From: Blastococcus sp. LR1
Lineage (GTDB): Bacteria > Actinomycetota > Actinomycetes > Mycobacteriales > Geodermatophilaceae
Length of the DNA: 64,000 nucleotides
Assembly: GCF_020166105.1 (NCBI RefSeq)
Contig: NZ_JAIUJY010000002.1
Coordinates: forward strand, 1-64,000
Direction: 5' to 3'
Each line of letters starts with the position of its first letter. Position 1 is the first letter of the stretch. The notes beneath the pieces were generated by a model. It was not told the DNA's origin, made no database searches, and worked only from the letters and a program-made list of their open reading frames with translations. Shown piece after piece: positions 16,511 to 27,235 of this stretch. Made by a program: the position numbers and the translations under genes.

Positions 16511-16556
16511 CGGGTGGAGCTGAGGGGACTCGAACCCCTGACCCCCACACTGCCAG
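16511..16556 (-). repeat. attL-type end: 46-bp copy of the tRNA-Ala 3' half
   Basis: Identical over 46 bases to 27009-27054. Positions 16515-16556 equal the tRNA-Ala sequence from the anticodon loop to the discriminator base. This is the displaced 3' end left by integration; the intact tRNA is at the other end beside the integrase. Confidence 0.9.
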
Positions 16557-16672
16557 GCCGTCATGATCCCGTTCGCAAACGTCCACCAGCGTCCACGACG
16601 GCCCTCTGAGCAGCCCATTTGTGAGCTTCCGAGACAGCAGCGGACGTAAGCGAACAAACGCGGAATCACCGC

Positions 16673-16706
16673 AACTGCAACCGGAACTGCAACCAGAACT
16701 GCAACC
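16673..16706. repeat. Integrase arm-type repeats, left end
   Basis: Three exact copies of AACTGCAACC at 16673, 16685 and 16697, spaced 12 bases apart. Two more exact copies with the same spacing lie at the right end inside the integrase gene. Confidence 0.7.
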
Positions 16707-16808
16707 ACCGCTGGGCCCCGGAGGTGGCTCGGTGCCCATGAGGCACATGGTCTGACTCCGGAGCGAGGCAGGCACCTGCTGTCCGTGTTGCTCGCTACCC
16801 TTTGCCAC

Positions 16809-17471
16809 ATGGCCAGTGCCAGCGGTGGGGGACCGACCGTCGAGCAGATCGAGGGCCGACTCAATCGACTGGAGGCGAGACGAACTGCCGTCTTCAACGT
16901 CGCCAGCGTCGTGGCCGTGGGCGTGCTGACGACCCTTGGAACCCTCGGAGGCGTATGGCTGGGTACCAGTCAGACGGCCGACGCCCAGGACGCCCGTGCA
17001 GATGAGGACTTCGCCAGGGAGCAGCGCATTGAGACTTACGGTGAGTTTCTCGGCGCCATCGACACAAGTTATGCCCTGATGGCTACGTGGCTACCGTCCG
17101 AAGGTCTGTTTTACGCGCGACCCATGGGCGTGTTTGACGCGCCTCCCGCGGAGACTTATGCGGAGATTGTCGCGTCCCTACCCCTAGTAAGGACGCTGTC
17201 AGGGCGCATAGACGTCATCGGCGGCGAAGAGGTGGCCCGCGACGCCGATCAACTTGCCGCACAACTGGAACTCAGCGCCGAAGTCATCAGGTGGATCCTT
17301 CGGTGTAATAACGAGAAAGCCGGTACGACGGAGTGTATCGGGCCACCAAGTGCAACGTTCCTGCCTCCTGGGACGCCGGAGGGGTCGGAGCCCGTTTATT
17401 TCAAGTTCCTTGAGGACCGCGAGGAGTTCTTGAGGACCGCTACGGCGCAGCTGAATCTTCCGAACTCGTGA
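16809..17471 (+). CDS. Single-pass membrane protein of the element, unknown
   Basis: 220 residues from ATG 16809. TACCCT seven bases upstream looks like a -10 element, so the transcript may be leaderless; the GTG at 16785 is a poorer choice. Residues 9-25 are a polar helix (VEQIEGRLNRLEARR), followed by one membrane helix at about 29-50 (VFNVASVVAVGVLTTLGTLG), and a soluble domain of about 165 residues starting with a helix rich in Ala/Asp/Glu/Arg (EDFAREQRIETYGEFLGAI). No family is recognised. Codon use is less biased than in the chromosome genes nearby, as expected for acquired DNA. Confidence 0.6.
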   Translation: MASASGGGPTVEQIEGRLNRLEARRTAVFNVASVVAVGVLTTLGTLGGVWLGTSQTADAQDARADEDFAREQRIETYGEFLGAIDTSYALMATWLPSEGLFYARPMGVFDAPPAETYAEIVASLPLVRTLSGRIDVIGGEEVARDADQLAAQLELSAEVIRWILRCNNEKAGTTECIGPPSATFLPPGTPEGSEPVYFKFLEDREEFLRTATAQLNLPNS

Positions 17472-17961
17472 GGACGGACCGATGGTGTGGTTAATGAGAA
17501 CCACAGCCAAGGCCGCAGGTCACGAGTGAGCCCATCAGAACACCCGCGAAGTAGTTGCCGGCCACTGGCCGGGCAACTGGGGAGGACTACCCGTGGCGGG
17601 GCTTTGGCAGCGCATGGCGGCATGGGCAGTCGACCTCTTCCTCGCGTACCTGGGCTAGTCGATCCTCGGCGGTGAGTTCGGCTCCGGCGGGAGCGCTGGA
17701 CGAGGCCCGCATACTGCCAGGCCGTCATGATCGCGTTTGTGGCGGTTCGCTACCGTTCCGCAACCGATAGACCAGCAGAGAGGTACGGTCGCGCACGGCC
17801 ACGAATGACCATGAACTCGACCAACTGCGACCAGAACCGCAACCACCGAGGGCGACCGGCTCCCCTCTCAACGCGGCCCTGACCGTTCCCCTGACCTCGC
17901 AGCCGAGCCGTTTGAGTGGGGCCAGGTTCGTTCTCCGGGAGCACCGCAGAGCGACGCCGGT
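17472..17961. other. Gene-poor stretch with decayed attachment arm
   Basis: No convincing gene. It contains a second copy of ACTGCCAGGCCGTCATGATC at 17713-17732 (also at 16549-16568) and degenerate arm repeats AACTGCGACC (17823) and AACCGCAACC (17835), again 12 bases apart. It looks like the remnant of an older related insertion. Confidence 0.6.
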
Positions 17962-18537
17962 CTACCCCTCATCGTGCGCCCGCCAGAGGTATGCCGAGTT
18001 GAGGCCGGCCAGCGTCCGCCAGCCGATGCACGCACCGATGTCAGTGAAGGCGTCGTCCATCCGTGCGATGACTGCCTCTGCCATATCGGCAGTCAAGTGC
18101 GCCGCTGCACTGCCAGCATCGAAGCCGTTGGCACGTAACCGCTCGCGAGCACGCGCGTCGTCATGGACGAGGAAATTGCGCCAGGTACTGAGCCAGCGCA
18201 GCGTTTCACCCGTCTCGGCATCGAGGTCGCGGGTGCCCGGACCGCAGATGGCTTGAGGTGCCGCCTGCCAGCGAGCCACCCAACCGCCCGCACCTTGCGG
18301 CTCAACATCGGCGAGGTGGTAGGCCCGGTGGATCCAGCCCTCGGCACCGGCCTGCGCCAGCACGATGGTCTCGACGACCGCGTCAAGTTCGCGAAGGCGC
18401 CGCTCATGGCGCCCGGTCTGAGCGGCTTCCGTCGCCCGCTGCCGCGCTTGATGCGCCGTTGCACATGCCCGTCGGTAGAGCATCGCTGCCGGGAAGAAGT
18501 CAGGCGACACTAGCTCGATCGCACTGCCGTCAGACAT
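17962..18537 (-). CDS. HEPN-like helical protein, unknown
   Basis: 191 residues, almost all helical. ATG at 18537 with GAGG upstream. Residues 120-125 read R-N-F-L-V-H, which fits the Rx4-6H motif of HEPN ribonucleases, with the frequent Asn after Arg. The motif lies at the start of a helix (WLSTWRNFLVHDDARARERL), as in HEPN folds. The rest does not let me name a subfamily. It sits beside a PIN-domain gene in a mobile element, so a role as toxin or defence nuclease is plausible but unproven. Alternative: a plain helical protein of unknown function. Confidence 0.55.
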   Translation of the reverse strand: MSDGSAIELVSPDFFPAAMLYRRACATAHQARQRATEAAQTGRHERRLRELDAVVETIVLAQAGAEGWIHRAYHLADVEPQGAGGWVARWQAAPQAICGPGTRDLDAETGETLRWLSTWRNFLVHDDARARERLRANGFDAGSAAAHLTADMAEAVIARMDDAFTDIGACIGWRTLAGLNSAYLWRAHDEG

Positions 18538-18699
18538 CGCACCTCGCCTATCCGTAGGTGGACCACCGAGGCAAACCGTCCACCGTCTTCGAACAACCTA
18601 CGAACGCGCTGTCCTATGGCTCGCTGAACTGCCAGGTGAAACCGGCTCTTCATACTTGGGGTGGCCGTCGGCTAGGCACCACGGCTCCGGGGATCGCCG

Positions 18700-19695
18700 T
18701 CATGTGTCGAGGAAGTCCCATTCGCTGCCGAGGACCCAGCGCAGGGCCGATAGCTTGCCGTTGAGCATCCCGAGCTCGAAATCCGTGTACGGGCCCAGCT
18801 GACCAGGCTCTGTGTACAGCCCCTCAACACGCCGGCGCCCTGGCCCTGCAATCGCGAGTAGGCGCTTCAACTCGGCGTCGTCCCCAGCGTCCTCGAGCCG
18901 GTACTCGTGCTGGAGGGAGCGGTGGTACCAGATGCGGTCAAACAGCTCCCGCTCTGCCTCTACGATCTCGTCGAGCCGTCGGGGCTCCTCCTCGAAGTAG
19001 GTCTCCGCGAACAGCTCCTCGATCTCGTCGCCGAAGTAGTCCAGGAGGACCTGATTGAGGCCGTCGACTCCCAGCCCGTAGGTCGACCCCTCGGCTACGA
19101 ACAGACTGGCGAGGTCAGGATGCGGCTGCCGCGCGTCGCCGCCGGGCAAGGAGAAGTCGTCGCTGTTGCTCGTGATGAACGCGTGCGGCTCCTGGTCCAG
19201 GTCGACCCCGCGGGCAGTCGTTTCGTAGAGCTCGATGAGCAAGGCGTCGGCGACACTATTGCGAGATCGGTGGAACGGCGCCTGCTTCGAAAGGCCACGC
19301 TCGACAACCCGGCGCTTCTCTTCGTCGCCCGGCTCGATGACACGACCCGCCTGGAGCAGTACCAAGACCTCGTCGAAGTTGCGGGTCGTCATCGCGCCGA
19401 TGAGCGGGACATGACGCGCGAGATCCGCAACGAGCCTGCGAGCCTCCTCTTGAGCCGTCCCGCCGTAGTCGTCGAGGTCTTGCTTGATGAGCTTGAACCG
19501 CTGGGCAATGCTCGCGGTCATCGACGTCTCGACTCGGTCCCGGTTCCGCTCGAACTCGTCGATGACGAGTCGGGGGACGAGCAGCTCCACCTGCCCCTGG
19601 TGAGCGAGTACCCGGAGCGCGACGATCCAGCGCTGCCCGTCCCGACGCTTGCACAGGTCGAGCCAGGTGGAGGTGTCAACAAGCAGATGGAGCAC
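18700..19695 (-). CDS. PIN-like domain protein (DUF4935 type)
   Basis: 331 residues. I chose GTG at 19695, giving the start VLHLLVDTSTWLDLCKRRDG, a classic PIN first strand with the catalytic Asp followed by a W-L-D-L turn. Further acidic candidates: ELLVPRLVIDEFERNRDR, NSVADALLIELYE, and AFITSNSDDFSLPGGD, giving the usual cluster of four acids that bind metal in PIN ribonucleases. The C-terminal 130 residues are helical and acidic (DEIEELFAETYFEEEPRRLD). PIN proteins of this size occur in defence islands. No antitoxin is adjacent. Confidence 0.75.
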   Translation of the reverse strand: MLHLLVDTSTWLDLCKRRDGQRWIVALRVLAHQGQVELLVPRLVIDEFERNRDRVETSMTASIAQRFKLIKQDLDDYGGTAQEEARRLVADLARHVPLIGAMTTRNFDEVLVLLQAGRVIEPGDEEKRRVVERGLSKQAPFHRSRNSVADALLIELYETTARGVDLDQEPHAFITSNSDDFSLPGGDARQPHPDLASLFVAEGSTYGLGVDGLNQVLLDYFGDEIEELFAETYFEEEPRRLDEIVEAERELFDRIWYHRSLQHEYRLEDAGDDAELKRLLAIAGPGRRRVEGLYTEPGQLGPYTDFELGMLNGKLSALRWVLGSEWDFLDT

Positions 19696-19727
19696 AAGCC
19701 CAACGTATGGCCTACCCCGGAGACGAC

Positions 19728-19830
19728 ATGGCCCAGTTGACCGAGGAGCAGAAGGCGCAGCGAGTGGTCGCTCGTCGCCGCAGCGCTGTGCTGGCGGCTG
19801 AAGAGGACGCCCTCGGACAGGAAACGCAAG
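19728..19830 (+). pseudogene. N-terminal fragment of a small helical protein
   Basis: ATG at 19728 with GGAG upstream reads MAQLTEEQKAQRVVARRR, then SAVLAAEEDALGQE. From memory this resembles the N-terminus of a small actinobacterial protein of unknown function that continues with a KRE-rich helix and a CxxC motif. Here the frame changes character after about residue 34 and runs into the DUF4062 gene, so the 3' part seems to have been replaced by a junction near 19830. The end coordinate is approximate. Confidence 0.3.
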
Positions 19831-19903
19831 CGTCGGGTGTGGGACGCCGGCGCGGGCCGGGTCAGGCCGGACGGGAGGACCGGTTCCCGAGGACACTGCC
19901 TCC

Positions 19904-21034
19904 ATGCGCGTCTTCATCTCTTCTGTCCGGATCAGCCTCGAGCAGGAGCGCGATTCCTTGAAGGGGCTGGTCGTGGCGCTAGGCCACGAGCCGGTTATGT
20001 TCGAGGACTTCACCGCGCAGCCGGTCCCCTCGCGCGAGGCGTGCCTGGAGGGCGTGAGGAGCTGCGACGTGTACCTGCTACTCCTGGGGCAGCGCTACGG
20101 CTACGAGTTCCCCGAGACCGGACTAAGCCCGACCGCGGAGGAGCACGTCGCCGCGAGGACCGCCGGCATTCCGCGTCTGGTCATGCGCAAGACCGGCGTG
20201 GAGCCCGAGCCGAGGCAGAAGGAGCTCATCGAGGAGATCCGCTCTTACCGCGACGGGGTCTTCTACAACGAGTTCACCGACGTCGTGGACCTCCAGGCCA
20301 AGGTCGCTGCGGCCCTGCGGCAGGCCGAGCAGGCGCCCGGATCATTGACCTTCGCGCCACTGCCGGGGGACGTACCAGTCCAGTGGCGCGGCGAATGGCC
20401 TGCCGAGCAGCAGGGTCATTCCGACCACGCCGTCCTGGAGCTCCACGTCCTGCCCGCCGCTTCGCAGCCGGTGCCTTCCCGCGTCCTCCGGGCGCTTCCC
20501 GAGCGGCTCGCCGCGGAGGTCCGGTCCTCCGGAGGAGTCGGACCCTCCGCCTCTGTCCCCGCCGACCACGACACCGCCGCCGCTTGGGCGCACGTCGTCG
20601 AGCGACGCCATAACCGCATGTACGACGAGGTCCGCGACGGCTCCCTCCTCGGATGCCGCGTCGCGACCACCGGTCAGACAAGCGTCTGGGGGACCCTCCC
20701 CGGCGACGGCATGGGCAGCATCCTCGACCCGGCAGACCTGATGGAGCGCCTCGCGAGATTCCTCCGGACCGCCGGAGCGGCCATGCCTGGAGACGCCCAG
20801 CAGCTCGCGCTGGCCGTCGGCGTCGACCCGCTCACCAGCGTCACCGAGGGCCGGGTCACCGGGATGTCCCGCAGCAGGGCCAGCGGATTCTCGCTTGGCC
20901 GTGAGCGGCTCGCGGTCCCGCCGGACGAGGCCGTCACCCGCGCCGCCCTCAGCAACGGAGCCCGCGACGCTGCCCGCACGCTCACCGAGGCGCTGCTCAC
21001 CGCCTACCGCAGCAACAACCGAGCCGGCTACTGA
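19904..21034 (+). CDS. DUF4062-domain protein (TIR-like fold)
   Basis: 376 residues. Residues 1-140 are a DUF4062 domain: MRVFISSVRISLEQERDSLK, EDFTAQPVPSREACLEGVRS, CDVYLLLLGQRYGYEFPETG, SPTAEEHVAARTAGIPRLVM. This domain is related to TIR/SEFIR folds and is often the N-terminal effector or sensor of NTPase-linked immune proteins. Here it is followed by a 230-residue C-terminal domain that I do not recognise (LLGCRVATTGQTSVWGTLPG). There is no NTPase in the same chain. No clear Shine-Dalgarno is visible. It lies between a PIN gene and a PHP-ATPase gene in the element. Confidence 0.75.
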   Translation: MRVFISSVRISLEQERDSLKGLVVALGHEPVMFEDFTAQPVPSREACLEGVRSCDVYLLLLGQRYGYEFPETGLSPTAEEHVAARTAGIPRLVMRKTGVEPEPRQKELIEEIRSYRDGVFYNEFTDVVDLQAKVAAALRQAEQAPGSLTFAPLPGDVPVQWRGEWPAEQQGHSDHAVLELHVLPAASQPVPSRVLRALPERLAAEVRSSGGVGPSASVPADHDTAAAWAHVVERRHNRMYDEVRDGSLLGCRVATTGQTSVWGTLPGDGMGSILDPADLMERLARFLRTAGAAMPGDAQQLALAVGVDPLTSVTEGRVTGMSRSRASGFSLGRERLAVPPDEAVTRAALSNGARDAARTLTEALLTAYRSNNRAGY

Positions 21035-21346
21035 ACACGTTGGCCCGGTTCGTCCGCAGCCCCTCCGTGAACGGCCGCTTTCCGGGCGCCGCCCACCGGC
21101 TTCAATCCATCGCGATCCGCCGACGTGACATCTAAGCGCCACCCACCTGGCAACCCAACAGCGAGCCCGCCCCCATACGCCCGCCGCTCAGCGTCCTGCG
21201 CACGTATGCCGCTCAAGCCACCGAAGAGACGACCTCACCAGCTACTGCGGAACCGACAAGATCAAGAGGGACACACGTCTTGCACTTCGGAGCGCGCGAT
21301 TCGTTGTGACGGACAGCAGCAACGTCTGCGTGCCCGACACGAACGC
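21035..21346. other. Non-coding gap between convergent element genes
   Basis: About 310 bases without a credible gene, terminator or repeat. It separates the DUF4062 gene from the convergent PHP-ATPase gene. Confidence 0.5.
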
Positions 21347-24322
21347 TCATTCCAGGCGGATTCGAAGCCGCCGTGCACGCTCCTCGAAGGCATGCTGACC
21401 GCCTTCGAGGATCTCGCAGACCTGCCGTCGGATGACTGGGTTCTCTAGACCGCCGCTTGTGTAGGTCATCTTTGGTAGTCGTCCCGGTCGATGCGCGCCG
21501 GCGTTCGCAACGATTACTTGGTCGGCGTCAGTGTTGACCACCAGGTTTGCGTTATGAGTCACGATAATGATCTGCCGTCTGCGTCTCGTCTCGACGAACC
21601 GTCCGACCAACTCGACGAAGATCGACTTAGGGTCGAGGTTCTCCTCGGGTTGGTCGATAATTAGTGGTCTGTCATCCGACTGGTCAACAGCCAAATAGAG
21701 CAGCAGCAACACGATGCCGCGCGTGCCTGGCGATAGCTGCTCGATCGCCACGCCGTCGTACTGCACCCCGTACTTCACCGAAATGTGCTCTGTGCTGTTC
21801 AGCCACGTCGCGATGCCAGCTGCCCACTCACGGAATGCCTGCTTATCCGCGCCCGACACCTTGGCTTGTTCGATGAAGTGTCGATCGTGCTCGGCACGGA
21901 ATGCTGCCATCGCCTCTGCGACCTCACCGCTCGAGCCGCTCTCCCAGGCAGGGAGCATCTCCTGGCGCACCTGATTGAGCAGTTCGCCCCGCCCACGAAA
22001 CTCACCCGTACGAAGGTCCAGAAGCGTCTCGCCCTGCTGAGCCCATGCCTCGACATCAACGACGCGGTTGACGCTGAAGGTCAGGTTGCCAAGTGCCCCC
22101 TCCTCAGCGCCCAGCATGCCTTTGAGGGGTGAATACATCGCCTCAAGCTGCTCTTGCTCCGAGACGAAGCCATCGAACAGAGACGCGTAGGCCTGCTTAC
22201 GCTTGAGCATCAGTGCCTTGATGCGGGCGGAGGCACCCTCGGCTTCCTTGATACTTCCAGTGATTGAGACGAGCGCAGCTTCAGTCTTGGCGATCTTGTC
22301 GTTGAGCGCCTGCAGCTGCCTCTGCCGGTTGGCGTCCAGTCCGATGAGTTCGCCGAGCCGCCACGCCTCAGCACGCAATGCACTAAGCGTCACCCTGGAC
22401 AGGTCCGCATCGTCGGCCACGAACGGCGGCAACTCATGTGCGGGCTGAGTCGGCTTGGGGACCGCCGGACCGACTAGTTCGCCGATGGCTTCGCGTACTG
22501 CGCCCAAGCGCGCGTCAACGAGCCCATCAACGTCGCCACTGAACCCCAGATTGAAGTTCTGCCATTCAGTGACAGTCAGACCCGCACCGGCGTAGTCGCG
22601 CTCCAGTTCTGCACGGATCGCCGGAAGGCGCCGGTCCAAGATGTCTTTGACGGCGTCCGTGAGATCCGAGAGCGACTTCTCTCGGCGCTTGAGCGCATCA
22701 ACCTCAGCCTGCTTGGCGACCAGGGCCCCACTAAGGGCTTCGAGTCGCTTGGCGCGTTGTTCGCCTCCCACCACAACTAGGCCGCCCCGGGCACGCTTGT
22801 CCTCCGTCAGGAGGCCAGCAAGCCTTGCCCGCTCCCTATTGAGACTAGGTAGTTCATCACCGGCGACCCGTTCAACTTCGATCTGCTCAGCCAGACTGTC
22901 CATCTCGTTCTGGGCATAGCGACGAAGGTCTCGTCCGTGGCTGGCACGCAGATCGAGGAGCTCCCGGAAGCTCGAAGCTCCCAGCCGGTCTTCGTAGGGA
23001 TGCGCTTCAAATATGACCCGCTCGATCTCGGCCAGCAGTTCGTCTGTGATCCCCTCCGACGAGCAGAGTCGCTCGACGAACTGCTGCGACAGGTACTGAA
23101 CGCGCGGCGCGTGATCGTCGAAGAAGTAGCTCGGCGGGAGATCGGCATCCGAGGTGGCGCCGTCGCCCCAGGCGAGAGCGACGTTGGTCCCGCCGATGTG
23201 CTGCCTGGCTCTCTGCAAGAAGGTCTGGTCGGTGTCATCGGTACTGCCGGCTCCGGCACCAGCCGCGATCAAGTCAGCGAGGGCCGTCTTGCCCGAACCA
23301 CGAGCGCCGATGATGGCTACCAGTCCGGGCGCAAGCGGGATCTCAGGTGTCGCTACCCAGTCGGCACCCGAGACGGTGATTCTGTCGATCACCCGATACG
23401 CGAGTGCCCCCTTGGCCGGCTCCTCGGCAACGATCACACGCTCCCTCGGCTCCAGACACGCCTGGCGAATGGCCTCAAAGGTGGCATCACCTTTGATCCA
23501 GGTGTAACGGTTCTGGGCCGGTCTCCCCACGTCGGCGAGCTTGTGAGCATCACTTCCGTGAATACACGCCTTGAGTCCGTCGTAGCGCCGGACCAGCTCT
23601 TCGGCTCCGAGTACCCCTTCCCCGATCCAGAAGCGCCGCTGCGCTGGCGAGCCAGAGAAGATCACGCGAGCGAGACGCTCGATCTCGATCCGGACGGCTT
23701 CGAGTGAGCCACCGGGCTCGCGAACACCTGATGTGCCGTCCGTGCTTCCGGCGGCGACACCGATGATGATGTTGCGCTGCGCCCAGGCGCTCGCTTCTAG
23801 CGATTGCTTGAGGTTCTCGATCGACACCTTGAAGAGATTGGTGCCGGCGGACAGCGCGGCCGTGTCATCCAGGATTGAGGGATCGTGGGCCTTCCCCAAC
23901 CGGATCAGGTCCGACCGTTCGCAGGCGTACGACTCGCGCCCGGACGAGAACGTCAAGGTCCGAAGGAAGCGCCGCGTCTCGTCGACGTGGTTGGGGTCTT
24001 CGGGGGAGACCAGCAGATGAATATTGACCGGGTGGTCGTCCCTAGTCGCTGTCGGCAGACGCAGTTCGATGTTCGGAAAGATCAGGCCGACGTCCGGTAG
24101 ACGGCCCGCCGCTCGGAAGTCGAGAACTTTCTCGTACTCGTCGATGCTGTAGTAGTCGGTGATGCCGAGCGCTTCGATTCGCGGGTCCGACTGCTCAATC
24201 CGTGTCAGATAGTCGTTCCACGCGTTCTGGCCGAACTGGTTATTCATGGCCGTACCGGGCGTGTGGATGTGCGGATCCCAGCGTCGCCAGACCGATCCGC
24301 GCGGGTCCGCCTGGGACCTCAT
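21347..24322 (-). CDS. PHP domain + SMC-like AAA ATPase (TrlF-like)
   Basis: 991 residues. AGGAGG lies ten bases before ATG 24322. The N-terminal PHP phosphoesterase has His18/His20 (DPHIHTPG), ITDYYSIDEY and SDAH at 257-260. The ATPase follows: Walker A GARGSGKTA at about 339-347, a Q-loop-like YLSQQFVERL, coiled coils at about 450-760 (TEDKRARGGLVVVG, LNDKIAKTEAAL), signature-like QLSPGTRGIVLLLLYLA, Walker B PLIIDQPEENLD and a THNANLVVN switch. This is the RecF/SMC-like arrangement seen in RloC/PrrC-type defence ATPases, with a PHP nuclease or phosphatase as effector. NCBI calls similar proteins TrlF-family, as far as I recall. Likely an anti-phage or nucleic-acid-damage sensor (inference). 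Confidence 0.8.
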   Translation of the reverse strand: MRSQADPRGSVWRRWDPHIHTPGTAMNNQFGQNAWNDYLTRIEQSDPRIEALGITDYYSIDEYEKVLDFRAAGRLPDVGLIFPNIELRLPTATRDDHPVNIHLLVSPEDPNHVDETRRFLRTLTFSSGRESYACERSDLIRLGKAHDPSILDDTAALSAGTNLFKVSIENLKQSLEASAWAQRNIIIGVAAGSTDGTSGVREPGGSLEAVRIEIERLARVIFSGSPAQRRFWIGEGVLGAEELVRRYDGLKACIHGSDAHKLADVGRPAQNRYTWIKGDATFEAIRQACLEPRERVIVAEEPAKGALAYRVIDRITVSGADWVATPEIPLAPGLVAIIGARGSGKTALADLIAAGAGAGSTDDTDQTFLQRARQHIGGTNVALAWGDGATSDADLPPSYFFDDHAPRVQYLSQQFVERLCSSEGITDELLAEIERVIFEAHPYEDRLGASSFRELLDLRASHGRDLRRYAQNEMDSLAEQIEVERVAGDELPSLNRERARLAGLLTEDKRARGGLVVVGGEQRAKRLEALSGALVAKQAEVDALKRREKSLSDLTDAVKDILDRRLPAIRAELERDYAGAGLTVTEWQNFNLGFSGDVDGLVDARLGAVREAIGELVGPAVPKPTQPAHELPPFVADDADLSRVTLSALRAEAWRLGELIGLDANRQRQLQALNDKIAKTEAALVSITGSIKEAEGASARIKALMLKRKQAYASLFDGFVSEQEQLEAMYSPLKGMLGAEEGALGNLTFSVNRVVDVEAWAQQGETLLDLRTGEFRGRGELLNQVRQEMLPAWESGSSGEVAEAMAAFRAEHDRHFIEQAKVSGADKQAFREWAAGIATWLNSTEHISVKYGVQYDGVAIEQLSPGTRGIVLLLLYLAVDQSDDRPLIIDQPEENLDPKSIFVELVGRFVETRRRRQIIIVTHNANLVVNTDADQVIVANAGAHRPGRLPKMTYTSGGLENPVIRRQVCEILEGGQHAFEERARRLRIRLE

Positions 24323-24804
24323 ATCGCCGTAGCCTCCTGTTCGTCAAGCACGTGGTCATCACTGCTCGAGGCGGCACATCACGTCACTCCCGGCCGGATT
24401 GCCGAGCCAGCGTTCCCCATGCGTGCTGCCTCTATCGCCCAAAGGATCACAGACCCAGGAGGAGATGGCCTGCAAGCGCGCGTCACCGTGGGCCGAGTCA
24501 AGGCTGCTTCTAGTTCTTCACTGCTGACGTCAGAGACCTGCGGCGAGGACCACGGCGTTGCCGAGGCGTTCCAGTGGGCGACCCAGCCGCCGGCGTGTGG
24601 CGCTTCGTGGCCACGCTCGTCCATTCCGCGCTCAGATTGTTGACCGTAGGGGTCGCTCGCACCGATGCGACGCGGCGCCGCATGACCCGGCCCTTCTCAT
24701 CCGCATGAGCGACGATCAAGATCGCGACCGTCACACCTCATGCACCTGCGGTCTGCCGAATCGTGGTGACGGGTTTCCGGAGACTCCTCCGGAGGCTTGA
24801 CGGC
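24323..24804. other. Intergenic stretch upstream of the PHP-ATPase
   Basis: About 480 bases with no gene I can support. It contains the AGGAGG ribosome site of the PHP-ATPase at its left end and presumably its promoter. Confidence 0.5.
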
Positions 24805-25317
24805 ATGGAAACCAGCGGTAGCTCCGAGTACCAAGCCCGTCGGCGGGAGCGCGAGCGGCAACGGCGTCAGCAATCCCAGCGGACGACTCCCAAGGCCCGC
24901 GCGGACCCGGCCGCAGCGGAAGTGCACGGTCGCGAGCGGAGGACCGCGGCGACGGCGTGCAGTTGGTGCGGCGGGCCGGTCACCCCGCGGAGCCGGGGGC
25001 CGATCCCGAAGTGGTGCTCGGCTACCTGCCGGCACCGCGCCTGGGAGCAGGCCCGAGCCGCGGCCTCAGGCCTGTCCGCGGTGGAGGTCGTCGAGCGGCG
25101 AGTCGAGGTCCAGGTCCCACTCGTGCCCACCCGCCGCGACTGGCCCAGACTGCTCGGTGAGCTCGTCGGCCAGCTTGACGACGGCCGGGTCTACGACCGC
25201 GACCTGCCCGCCGTGGCGCGGGCACTTCAGCCCGTACTGGAGAGCTACAGGAGACGCGCCCTTCTTCACCGGCGCTCCCCACGTGCACTGACCGATGCTT
25301 CAGAAGTTCTGCAGTAG
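24805..25317 (+). CDS. Small zinc-ribbon protein of the element
   Basis: 170 residues from ATG 24805 (GGAGG nine bases upstream). An Arg/Gln-rich N-terminus (ARRRERERQRRQQSQR) is followed by CSWCGGPVTPRSRGPIPKWC and, soon after, CRHRAWEQ, a four-cysteine zinc ribbon (CxxC...CxxxC). Similar proteins are frequent in actinobacterial integrative elements close to the integrase; their role is unknown and may be DNA binding during transfer or excision. Confidence 0.6.
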   Translation: METSGSSEYQARRRERERQRRQQSQRTTPKARADPAAAEVHGRERRTAATACSWCGGPVTPRSRGPIPKWCSATCRHRAWEQARAAASGLSAVEVVERRVEVQVPLVPTRRDWPRLLGELVGQLDDGRVYDRDLPAVARALQPVLESYRRRALLHRRSPRALTDASEVLQ

Positions 25318-25469
25318 CGAGGGGCATGTGCTCGCGTCTCCTGTGAGCAGCAATCACCTCTCGTTACGCGTCTCCACAGGAGAGGAACAGGAGATGTTCG
25401 GGAGGCCGCTCCCCCACCGTCGTGCGGCAGCATCTACGCAGCGACGCCACTGATCCGGGAGATGTCGAC

Positions 25470-25712
25470 ATGGGTGATCCGCAGCCGCTGCGCGAAGTCG
25501 TGGCGGCCGATCGGCTTCTCCTCACGCCCGAGGAGGCGGGGGAGGTCCTCCGCGTCGGCCGCACGACGGTGTACGCGCTCATGAAGAGCGGGGAGCTGCG
25601 TCCCGTGCACATCGGCCGCAGCTGCCGGATCTCTCAGGCAGAGCTCGACCGCTACGTCCGCCGGCTCGAGGCTTCTTCGTCCCGTCCACAGCCTTCGCCG
25701 GACGCCGCGTGA
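25470..25712 (+). CDS. Excisionase-like helix-turn-helix protein
   Basis: 80 residues from ATG 25470, with GGGAG upstream. HTH_17/AlpA pattern: LLTPEEAGEVLRVGRTTVYA, LMKSGELRPVHIGRSCRISQ, AELDRYVRRL. Located 74 bases before the integrase and in the same direction, the standard place for the excision factor of such elements. A regulator role is also possible. Confidence 0.8.
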   Translation: MGDPQPLREVVAADRLLLTPEEAGEVLRVGRTTVYALMKSGELRPVHIGRSCRISQAELDRYVRRLEASSSRPQPSPDAA

Positions 25713-25786
25713 CTCCACAGCGGGCCTGCCCATCGCCCGAGTGCTCGGCGAAACTGAGCCTTCGTAGCAGCGGCGAGGGGTAGCGG

Positions 25787-27235
25787 ATGGCCGGACGCGC
25801 CTCGAACGGTGAGTCGACGATCTACCAGGACGCCGACGGGCGGTGGCACGGCTACGTCTCCGTCGGCTTCACCCTCACCGGCAAGCCCGACCGCCGGCAC
25901 GTCACTGGCAAGACCCGGGCCGTGGTCGTGGCGAAGGTCCGCGACCTGGAGCGCAAGCGTGATGCGGGCACCCTCAGCGCCGTCTCCACCCCGACCGTCG
26001 CCGACTGGCTGGAGCACTGGCTCACCACCATCGCCCCGCGCCGGGTGCGCCAGCGGACCCTGGAGAGCTACGAGTCCGCCGTCCGCAAGCATCTGGTCCC
26101 CGGCATCGGCCGGCACCGCCTCGACCGGCTGCGACCGGAGCATCTTGACCAGCTCTACACCGCGCTCCTCGACGCCGGCTACTCCCCCGCCACCGTGCTG
26201 CGCCACCACCGGATCCTGTCCCGCGCGCTCACCGTCGCCGTCCAGCGCGGGCACGTTCCCCGCAACGTGGCCAGCCTGGTCGATCCGCCCGCCCAGAAGC
26301 AGAGCGACCTCGCCACCGCCCTCGACCTCGGTGAGGCCCGCGCCGTGCTGGCCGCAGCGGCGCGCGTCCGCAACTCCGCCCGCTGGACCGTCGCGCTCGC
26401 CCTCGGCCTGCGCCAGTCCGAGGCGCTGGCGTTGCAGTGGAAGGACATCGACCTGCTCAACAACACCCTCACGGTCCGGCGCAGCATCCACCGGGTCCGC
26501 GGCGGCGGGCTGATCTACGAGGAGCCCAAGACCCGCCGCAGCCAGCGCACCCTGGCGCTCCCCCTACCGCTGGTCGCCGAGCTGCACCGGCACAAGGCCG
26601 CCCAGCTCGGCGAGCGGATGCTGGCCGGCTCCGAATGGCACGACGAGGATCTCGTCTTCGCCCAGGCCAACGGCCGGCCGATCGACAAGAAGACCGACTA
26701 CGACGACTGGACGCGGCTGCTGCAGAAGGCAGGCGTCTGCCACGTCCGCCTGCACGACGGCCGGCACACCGCCGCCACCCTGCTGCTCACCGAGAACGTG
26801 CACCCACGGGTCGTCATGGAGCTGCTCGGCCACAGCCAGATGCGCACGACGATGGACATCTACAGCCATGTCATGCCGGCGCTGGCCCGCGAGGCGGCCG
26901 ACCGGATGGGCACCGTGCTGCTCACAGGTAAGGGTGGGCAAACTGCAACCACAACTGCAACCAGAGACGACTCAGGCCGCTCCCCCGAAGGGGAACGGCC
27001 TGGTCATCCGGGTGGAGCTGAGGGGACTCGAACCCCTGACCCCCACACTGCCAGTGTGGTGCGCTACCAGCTGCGCCACAGCCCCGAACCCGGCCCGATC
27101 TGGTGTGTTCGAGCCGGTAGCAACTGTACAGGGCACCGACACCCACCCCGCACAGGGGTGCCGGGTGTCGTCACCCGGCTCCGCGGTGGGGTCAGACCTC
27201 GACGCCGCGGGCGGCGAGCCACGGAACGGGGTTGA
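25787..27235 (+). CDS. Tyrosine recombinase (integrase) running through attR into the tRNA
   Basis: 482 residues in the integrated state, ATG 25787 with GAGGGG upstream. N-terminal AP2-like DNA-binding domain (ESTIYQDADGRWHGYVSVGF), core-binding domain at about 68-160, catalytic domain with Arg209 (GLRQSEALAL), His323/Arg326 (LHDGRHTAATLL), His349 (LLGHS) and nucleophile Tyr359 (MDIYSH). After residue 383 the gene crosses two arm repeats, the tRNA terminator hairpin, the 46-bp attachment core and the tRNA antisense strand; the stop is beyond at 27233-27235. In the excised circle codon 423 would be joined to 16557 and the protein would end after Arg-Pro-Ser (425 residues). The tail after about 385 is unlikely to be catalytic. 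Confidence 0.92.
   Translation: MAGRASNGESTIYQDADGRWHGYVSVGFTLTGKPDRRHVTGKTRAVVVAKVRDLERKRDAGTLSAVSTPTVADWLEHWLTTIAPRRVRQRTLESYESAVRKHLVPGIGRHRLDRLRPEHLDQLYTALLDAGYSPATVLRHHRILSRALTVAVQRGHVPRNVASLVDPPAQKQSDLATALDLGEARAVLAAAARVRNSARWTVALALGLRQSEALALQWKDIDLLNNTLTVRRSIHRVRGGGLIYEEPKTRRSQRTLALPLPLVAELHRHKAAQLGERMLAGSEWHDEDLVFAQANGRPIDKKTDYDDWTRLLQKAGVCHVRLHDGRHTAATLLLTENVHPRVVMELLGHSQMRTTMDIYSHVMPALAREAADRMGTVLLTGKGGQTATTTATRDDSGRSPEGERPGHPGGAEGTRTPDPHTASVVRYQLRHSPEPGPIWCVRAGSNCTGHRHPPRTGVPGVVTRLRGGVRPRRRGRRATERG
26941..26962. repeat. Integrase arm-type repeats, right end
   Basis: Two exact copies of AACTGCAACC at 26941 and 26953, 12 bases apart, inside the 3' part of the integrase gene. They match the three copies at the left end. 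Confidence 0.7.
26973..27002 (-). terminator. Replacement terminator for tRNA-Ala brought by the element
   Basis: Hairpin with 13-bp arms (26973-26985 and 26990-27002, one G-T pair) just downstream of the tRNA. It parallels the displaced hairpin at 16474-16505. It lies within the integrase reading frame. Confidence 0.6.
27009..27054 (-). repeat. attR-type end, 46-bp core within tRNA-Ala
   Basis: Identical to 16511-16556. It covers the tRNA from the discriminator base to the anticodon loop. To the right the sequence continues as the intact tRNA; to the left is the integrase. Confidence 0.9.
27013..27085 (-). tRNA. tRNA-Ala (anticodon GGC)
   Basis: 73-nt cloverleaf on the minus strand. The acceptor stem GGGGCTG pairs with CAGCTCC (one G-T). 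D-loop GCGCAGCTGGTAGCGC, anticodon loop CTGGCAG with GGC, T-arm GGGGTTCGAGTCCCC, discriminator A. CCA is not encoded. The 3' half was restored by the integrated element. Confidence 0.95.
27137..27170 (-). terminator. Terminator of the M23 peptidase gene
   Basis: Hairpin CGACACCC/GGGTGTCG extended by ACCCC/GGGGT with a three-base bulge, just downstream of the peptidase stop. Confidence 0.6.

Follow-up and report, generated by a model that had tools for sequence, protein, structure and literature searches.

Four adjacent genes coding for candidate anti-phage proteins were analyzed in a 64,000-bp stretch of the genome of Blastococcus sp. LR1 (contig NZ_JAIUJY010000002.1, positions 1–64,000), hereafter the window. 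They encode a HEPN-like protein, a PIN domain protein, a DUF4062 protein, and a PHP–SMC ATPase protein of the TrlF family (Table 1). The block is probably carried as cargo by a single tRNA-Ala integrative element and would consist of four separately acquired and individually acting anti-phage candidates, including a Swarozyc-like DUF4062 protein, rather than one machine. Activities, triggers, and phenotypes given below for the four genes are predictions.

All four open reading frames (ORFs) were present side by side at 17962–24322, as described in the initial annotation. Pairwise ratios of nonsynonymous to synonymous substitution rates (dN/dS) were 0.12–0.17 for the HEPN-like gene and 0.11–0.16 for the PIN gene (three comparisons each), and 0.16 for the DUF4062 gene (one comparison). 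These three genes, which have close relatives, are under purifying selection, and the low ratios argue that their coding is not due to chance. The dN/dS of the TrlF gene is little informative because its sole comparator was the second copy of the host, 28.5% identical over 652 aligned residues.

The location of this defence-type island inside a tRNA-integrated element, also proposed in the initial annotation, was confirmed. The direct repeats of the tRNA 3′ end (16513–16556 and 27011–27054) were identical in 44 of 44 bases, and their spacing of 10,498 bp corresponds to the length of the element (10.5 kb). An integrase gene was present, and in the related genome G002 (locus L139) the left and right flanks were contiguous, representing an empty site. 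The decayed left end at 17706–17848 had homologues at left ends in five genomes (G001, G003, G011, G008, and G021), which suggests that a related element had earlier been inserted in tandem. The element proper probably spans 17706–27010, holding the four genes, a truncated cysteine-rich remnant, and a small backbone gene, while the first 1.2 kb would be a remnant of another element.

Stretches at the same tRNA-Ala were obtained from 20 of 22 other genomes of the genus, some of them ended by contig ends. An integrase homologue with 65–94% identity was carried by 13 of the 20, fragments by two, and none by five, among them the empty site of G002. The cargo of G004 included type I restriction genes, YgjP, an OLD-like ATPase, the cysteine-rich gene, and a PIN relative; that of G017 included type I restriction genes, YgjP, a TrlF relative, and GmrSD. 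A ThsB-type TIR protein (G006), a STAND NTPase (G008), and an OLD-like protein (G019) were also found. The tRNA-Ala site is a hotspot with changing cargo, often defence genes; the island is a routine mobile defence locus and illustrates how an actinobacterial tRNA-Ala hotspot exchanges defence genes between related elements. A HEPN-like relative adjoined type I restriction genes and two GmrSD genes (L078), and a C-terminal fragment of such a relative adjoined Wadjet-type JetD and a JetC-like ATPase (L080). Co-occurrence with defence genes elsewhere was seen for relatives of the HEPN-like protein, which lay beside such genes, and for relatives of the PIN and TrlF proteins, each in an element that also held type I restriction genes.

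Separate acquisition is indicated by the distribution of the genes. We compared 40 fetched loci, 20 chosen for holding one of the four genes and 20 at the hotspot (L067/L164 and L082/L178 being the same places). PIN occurred alone in seven loci, with DUF4062 in two, DUF4062 alone in two, the HEPN-like gene alone in five, and TrlF alone in six; 18 had none. A scan of genome contigs gave 43 DUF4062-type loci, inspected with flanks of up to 6 kb (shorter where a contig ended): PIN was found in two (one near-identical island), one showed a similarity to TrlF in a C-terminal ATPase, and no locus had the HEPN-like gene. The conserved co-occurrence of the four genes expected of one multigene system was not found in these sets, and the block did not recur as the combination that the initial annotation had pointed out, PIN with DUF4062 being the only joint occurrence in the 40 loci. 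Nor did the nuclease pair suggested there for the HEPN-like and PIN genes hold: both were present in 0 of 5 HEPN-like loci and 0 of 9 PIN loci (one PIN place counted twice), and this pair was rejected. A DUF4062–PIN pair was rejected as well. Its sole other case was one near-identical island in two genera (L119/L120, in G029 and G019), with PIN 92% and DUF4062 35% identical to those of the window and DUF4062 turned round relative to PIN; therefore, the two genes were not inherited together. A divergent gene of 330 codons beside a Rhodococcus DUF4062 gene (L086), considered as a possible PIN gene, showed no similarity to PIN and no Pfam match.

According to the accessible text of a recent preprint, DUF4062 is a TIR-like NADase, and the system was named Swarozyc (Osinski et al. 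2026, PMC13174449); KpSwz of Klebsiella, with structures 10wc, 11cq, and 11cv in PDB, is described there as an abortive defence that is triggered by phage portal, hydrolyses NAD+, and acts alone. The DUF4062 domain of the window protein was recognized by Pfam with E 1.6e-22, and a profile of its family matched KpSwz (E 1.6e-9) at positions 2–150 only. Residue E80 was unchanged in 35 of 35 sequences and aligned with Ala84 of the solved KpSwz chain, which, judging from the construct numbering, appears to be the E97A mutation of the catalytic Glu. Two features of Swarozyc, the DUF4062 domain and the catalytic Glu, were found in the window protein. The TIR-like N-terminus, the unrecognized C-terminus, and the lack of a detectable NTPase domain stated in the initial annotation were seen again; the DUF4062 domain, no longer without a name, is that of the Swarozyc NADase. 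Among the papers that mention DUF4062, one was relevant. The model of the whole protein had a predicted local distance difference test score (pLDDT) of 87. In a fold search against a PDB copy ending in April 2026, the best-covered targets among the best 50 of 1,454 matches were CMP N-glycosidases, SARM1 TIR, and deoxyribosyltransferases; the matches were given without ranges, and long, poor ones, such as SelB, are not assignable to either domain. The window protein was matched to residue 344 or beyond in 35 of the 43 DUF4062-type loci, and DUF4062 proteins were found in 11 of 72,556 plasmid records, two of them with coverage of 80% or more.

As far as the accessible text of the preprint goes, the window protein shares with Swarozyc the N-terminal TIR-like DUF4062 domain, the conserved catalytic Glu, a C-terminal auxiliary domain, the single-gene organization, the defence-island setting, and horizontal spread (PMC13174449). 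In contrast, its C-terminal domain was not matched by the KpSwz chain beyond position 150, and the model of this domain contained many strands and three long helices, while that of KpSwz is described as a portal-binding HTH/winged domain. The window protein most likely works as a single-gene device for abortive infection, of the Swarozyc kind: the C-terminal domain would detect an infection product or trigger and cluster the protein, whereupon the TIR-like domain would destroy the NAD+ of the cell. The chemistry is presumed by analogy with KpSwz, and the sensor role is suggested by the modularity of the C-terminal domain. With the window protein, this very recent NADase family, which the human vault protein TEP1 shares, seems to gain a different kind of C-terminal domain.

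The C-terminal domain comprised about 220 residues. Five copies of it compared alone with Pfam, which holds TCAD and related families, gave no match over the cut-off (best E 0.14). A profile of 24 DUF4062-type copies matched five of 394 genomes of the class: the host itself, G616 and G485, where the domain stood behind a different N-terminus, and two genomes with weak partial matches. In the order of G616, the profile matched 17 of 293 genomes: seven of the DUF4062 type (one frame-broken), four of the PNP type, one of the TCAD9 type, and five partial. Fusions to a PNP_UDP_1 nucleosidase were found in five genomes including G485 (Pfam E 3.7e-28 to 4.7e-34), the one in G960 having a weaker C-terminal match (E 2.7e-12); the single TCAD9-like domain scored 33.6 against a cut-off of 40. 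Profile comparison of the C-terminal domains by hhalign gave 99.94% (E 9.4e-37) between the DUF4062 and PNP types and 98.8% between the TCAD9 and DUF4062 types, with 0.3% for an unrelated control. Of the plasmid records, five were matched when the domain was searched by itself, corresponding to two known DUF4062 proteins and three coding pieces of 163–225 amino acids, and none when the PNP-type domain was searched. The PNP-type gene of L214 overlapped a TPR gene whose STAND match stayed below threshold, and the TCAD9-type gene of L215 overlapped a TPR-CHAT gene.

This modularity, with DUF4062, PNP_UDP_1, and TCAD9-like partners, is new here. Since the same domain also follows PNP_UDP_1 nucleosidases and, in one case, a TCAD9-like domain, it seems to act as a portable activator for various effectors that consume nucleotides. 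We propose tentatively, with confidence a little short of even, that it is a new portable infection sensor and oligomerization switch of Actinomycetota, placed alternately on a TIR-like NADase, a PNP-type nucleosidase, and a kinase-like TCAD9 domain; a given kind of trigger could then lead to loss of NAD+ or of another nucleotide, and in a third of the loci seen the domain may have a membrane partner. Adaptor domains that serve TIR as well as PNP effectors are already well established (Kaur et al. 2020, PMC7159879; Kaur et al. 2021, PMC8195603); therefore, the domain is a variant and not a new kind. As in the accessible text of those papers, a non-catalytic domain is attached to alternative nucleotide-processing effectors, and TPR, CHAT, and weak STAND matches occur in genes next to the fusions; unlike the adaptors, the domain is of about 220 residues, C-terminal, and without a Pfam match over the cut-off, and the term DUF4062 occurs in neither main text as far as accessible. 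No published description of the domain was found in the literature searched via the names of its partner domains. Its presence behind nucleosidases poses a clean question: is the same phage signal answered with different enzymes?

A divergent gene of about 150 codons stood upstream of the DUF4062 gene in 15 of 45 loci (the 43 and two plasmid loci): L087, L104, L106–L112, L115, L117, L118, L121, L124, and L128. It lay within about 100 bp in 14 of them and about 1 kb away in L124. Hydrophobic stretches, noted by eye, make its product a possible membrane partner. They also favour an alternative in which the DUF4062 protein would not deplete NAD but, as two-gene TIR systems do, make a signal received by a membrane protein or some other partner, the window copy being inactive without that partner. 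We consider this unlikely: the gene was missing from 30 of the 45 loci, the similarity of its product to DUF4231/SLATT was far under the cut-off, and the relative KpSwz, as described in the accessible text, hydrolyses NAD+ and acts alone.

The PIN protein scored 67.4 against a cut-off of 32 for PIN_12 (PF16289) and is probably an RNase, judging from the family; no partner of it is known. Homologues and coding bias placed its start near 19695–19701 rather than at 20013, the longer ORF overlapping the DUF4062 gene. In three relatives a cysteine-rich gene of about 191 codons was divergent to PIN, and in the window its remnant lies between PIN and DUF4062, which suggests that DUF4062 joined an older PIN unit. 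PIN genes were found in 44 of the plasmid records, 22 of them predicted to be conjugative, and one partial relative in the viral contigs searched. The literature on PIN_12/DUF4935/PF16289 contained nothing relevant among the matches listed. PIN copies were located about 250 bp from tRNA-Gly(TCC) in L066, L068, L069, and L070, which raises the possibility that PIN is terminal cargo in further tRNA elements as well.

The TrlF protein was assigned to TrlF_fam_ATP (NF045780), the match covering 979 of 991 residues and scoring 629.4 bits (cut-off 350), which bears out the TrlF-like fusion of a PHP domain to an SMC-like ATPase named in the initial annotation. Conserved strings in the protein presumably represent the PHP, Walker A, and Walker B motifs. 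Identification as the anti-phage protein Ppl was rejected: it matched in part only, with 107.7 bits against a cut-off of 1000 and residues 847–986 as the best stretch. From family knowledge, the SMC-like ATPase would sense invading or damaged DNA, and the PHP domain probably cleaves nucleic acid or nucleotides. The literature on PHP–SMC defence proteins contained nothing direct among the matches listed, and of the listed papers that mention TrlF, one was relevant. A trlR-trlF-trlG operon is described in Photorhabdus in the accessible text of PMC7554251; unlike it, the window gene lies outside any such operon. A second TrlF family gene of the host (L083, G000:C3:494343-497126) also exceeded the cut-off, and a relative of the cysteine-rich gene lay near it.

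The HEPN-like protein had no Pfam, PADLOC, or NCBIfam family, no convincing PDB match, and no HEPN match in Pfam or PDB. The string R120-N-x-L-V-H125 was unchanged in four of four full-length sequences, the window copy included, and fits what we take to be the Rx4-6H motif of the HEPN superfamily. Resting on this motif, the assignment is the weaker call; as in HEPN RNases, the motif is invariant, but no partner is known, and the protein is probably an RNase. One relative was found in the plasmid records and none in the viral contigs searched.

Several observations weigh against the block being a set of separately acquired, individually acting anti-phage candidates. All 18 loci with none of the four genes are at the hotspot. 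Ten chosen hotspot cargo proteins included four without a Pfam match and one thymidylate synthase; thus, the cargo is not wholly defence. PADLOC assigned no family to the HEPN-like, PIN, or DUF4062 protein. The PIN and HEPN-like genes are co-directional with a gap of 162 bp, and co-transcription is possible. The HEPN fold is unproved, the single-sequence model being all-helical and poor (pLDDT 56.8). The C-terminal domain of the DUF4062 protein is rare in the class, two of its five matches being weak and partial, and the window copy, having no divergent gene of about 150 codons upstream, could be incomplete.

Less likely again than a signal-making DUF4062 protein is that the genes are passengers stabilizing the element, as toxin-like maintenance modules, and not phage defence. 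PIN and HEPN folds are frequent among toxins, and PIN genes are carried by plasmids, half of those found being predicted as conjugative; no antitoxin-like partner was seen beside the genes, and their relatives are found in clusters with genes for restriction and other kinds of defence. The two roles are not mutually exclusive. One new multicomponent defence system, with TrlF as sensor and the HEPN-like, PIN, and DUF4062 proteins as effectors, is very improbable: the adjacency of the genes, which fill the cargo of one element, and the PIN–DUF4062 island of G029 and G019 speak for it, but the genes occur mostly singly in the 40 loci, and that island differs in DUF4062 sequence and orientation.

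Table 1. Features of the tRNA-Ala element and its cargo in the window
Feature	Coordinates	Strand	Remarks
attL, identical to the tRNA-Ala 3′ part over 44 nt	16513..16556		Ends agree with the empty site of G002
Probable remnant of a second, related element	16557..17705		No confident gene
Second, decayed left end with arm-like repeats	17706..17848		Homologous to left ends in 5 of 20 hotspot loci
HEPN-like protein, 191 aa	17962..18537	-	Invariant R120-x4-H125; no family match
PIN_12 protein, about 331 aa	18700..19695	-	Pfam E 2.7e-18; start from homologues and coding bias
Truncated remnant of cysteine-rich gene (about 191 aa)	19728..19871	+	60% over 53 residues
DUF4062 TIR-like domain, residues 1-145	19904..20338	+	Candidate catalytic Glu E80
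C-terminal domain of the DUF4062 protein (residues 146-376), candidate portable module	20339..21034	+	
TrlF family protein, 991 aa	21347..24322	-	PHP domain and SMC-like ATPase
Small backbone gene common to elements at the site	24804..25317	+	tblastn matches in 9 of 20 hotspot loci
Excisionase-like HTH_17 protein	25470..25712	+	Pfam E 4.9e-15, on ORF 25422-25712
Tyrosine integrase	25787..27235	+	Phage_integrase E 2.5e-24
tRNA-Ala(GGC), attachment site	27011..27085	-	attR core 27011-27054

The integrase ORF reads through the tRNA gene, and its C-terminus would change upon excision. In the element of G001, two cargo genes (L176:13678-15355) resemble by eye a pair of DarG macro-domain and DarT. 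A sequence of about 60 nt at 21241–21330 recurred near the cargo of tRNA-Ala elements at nine other loci in both orientations (16 matching pieces including itself), sometimes directly upstream of the small backbone gene; it could serve as a promoter or as a site where cargo is exchanged.

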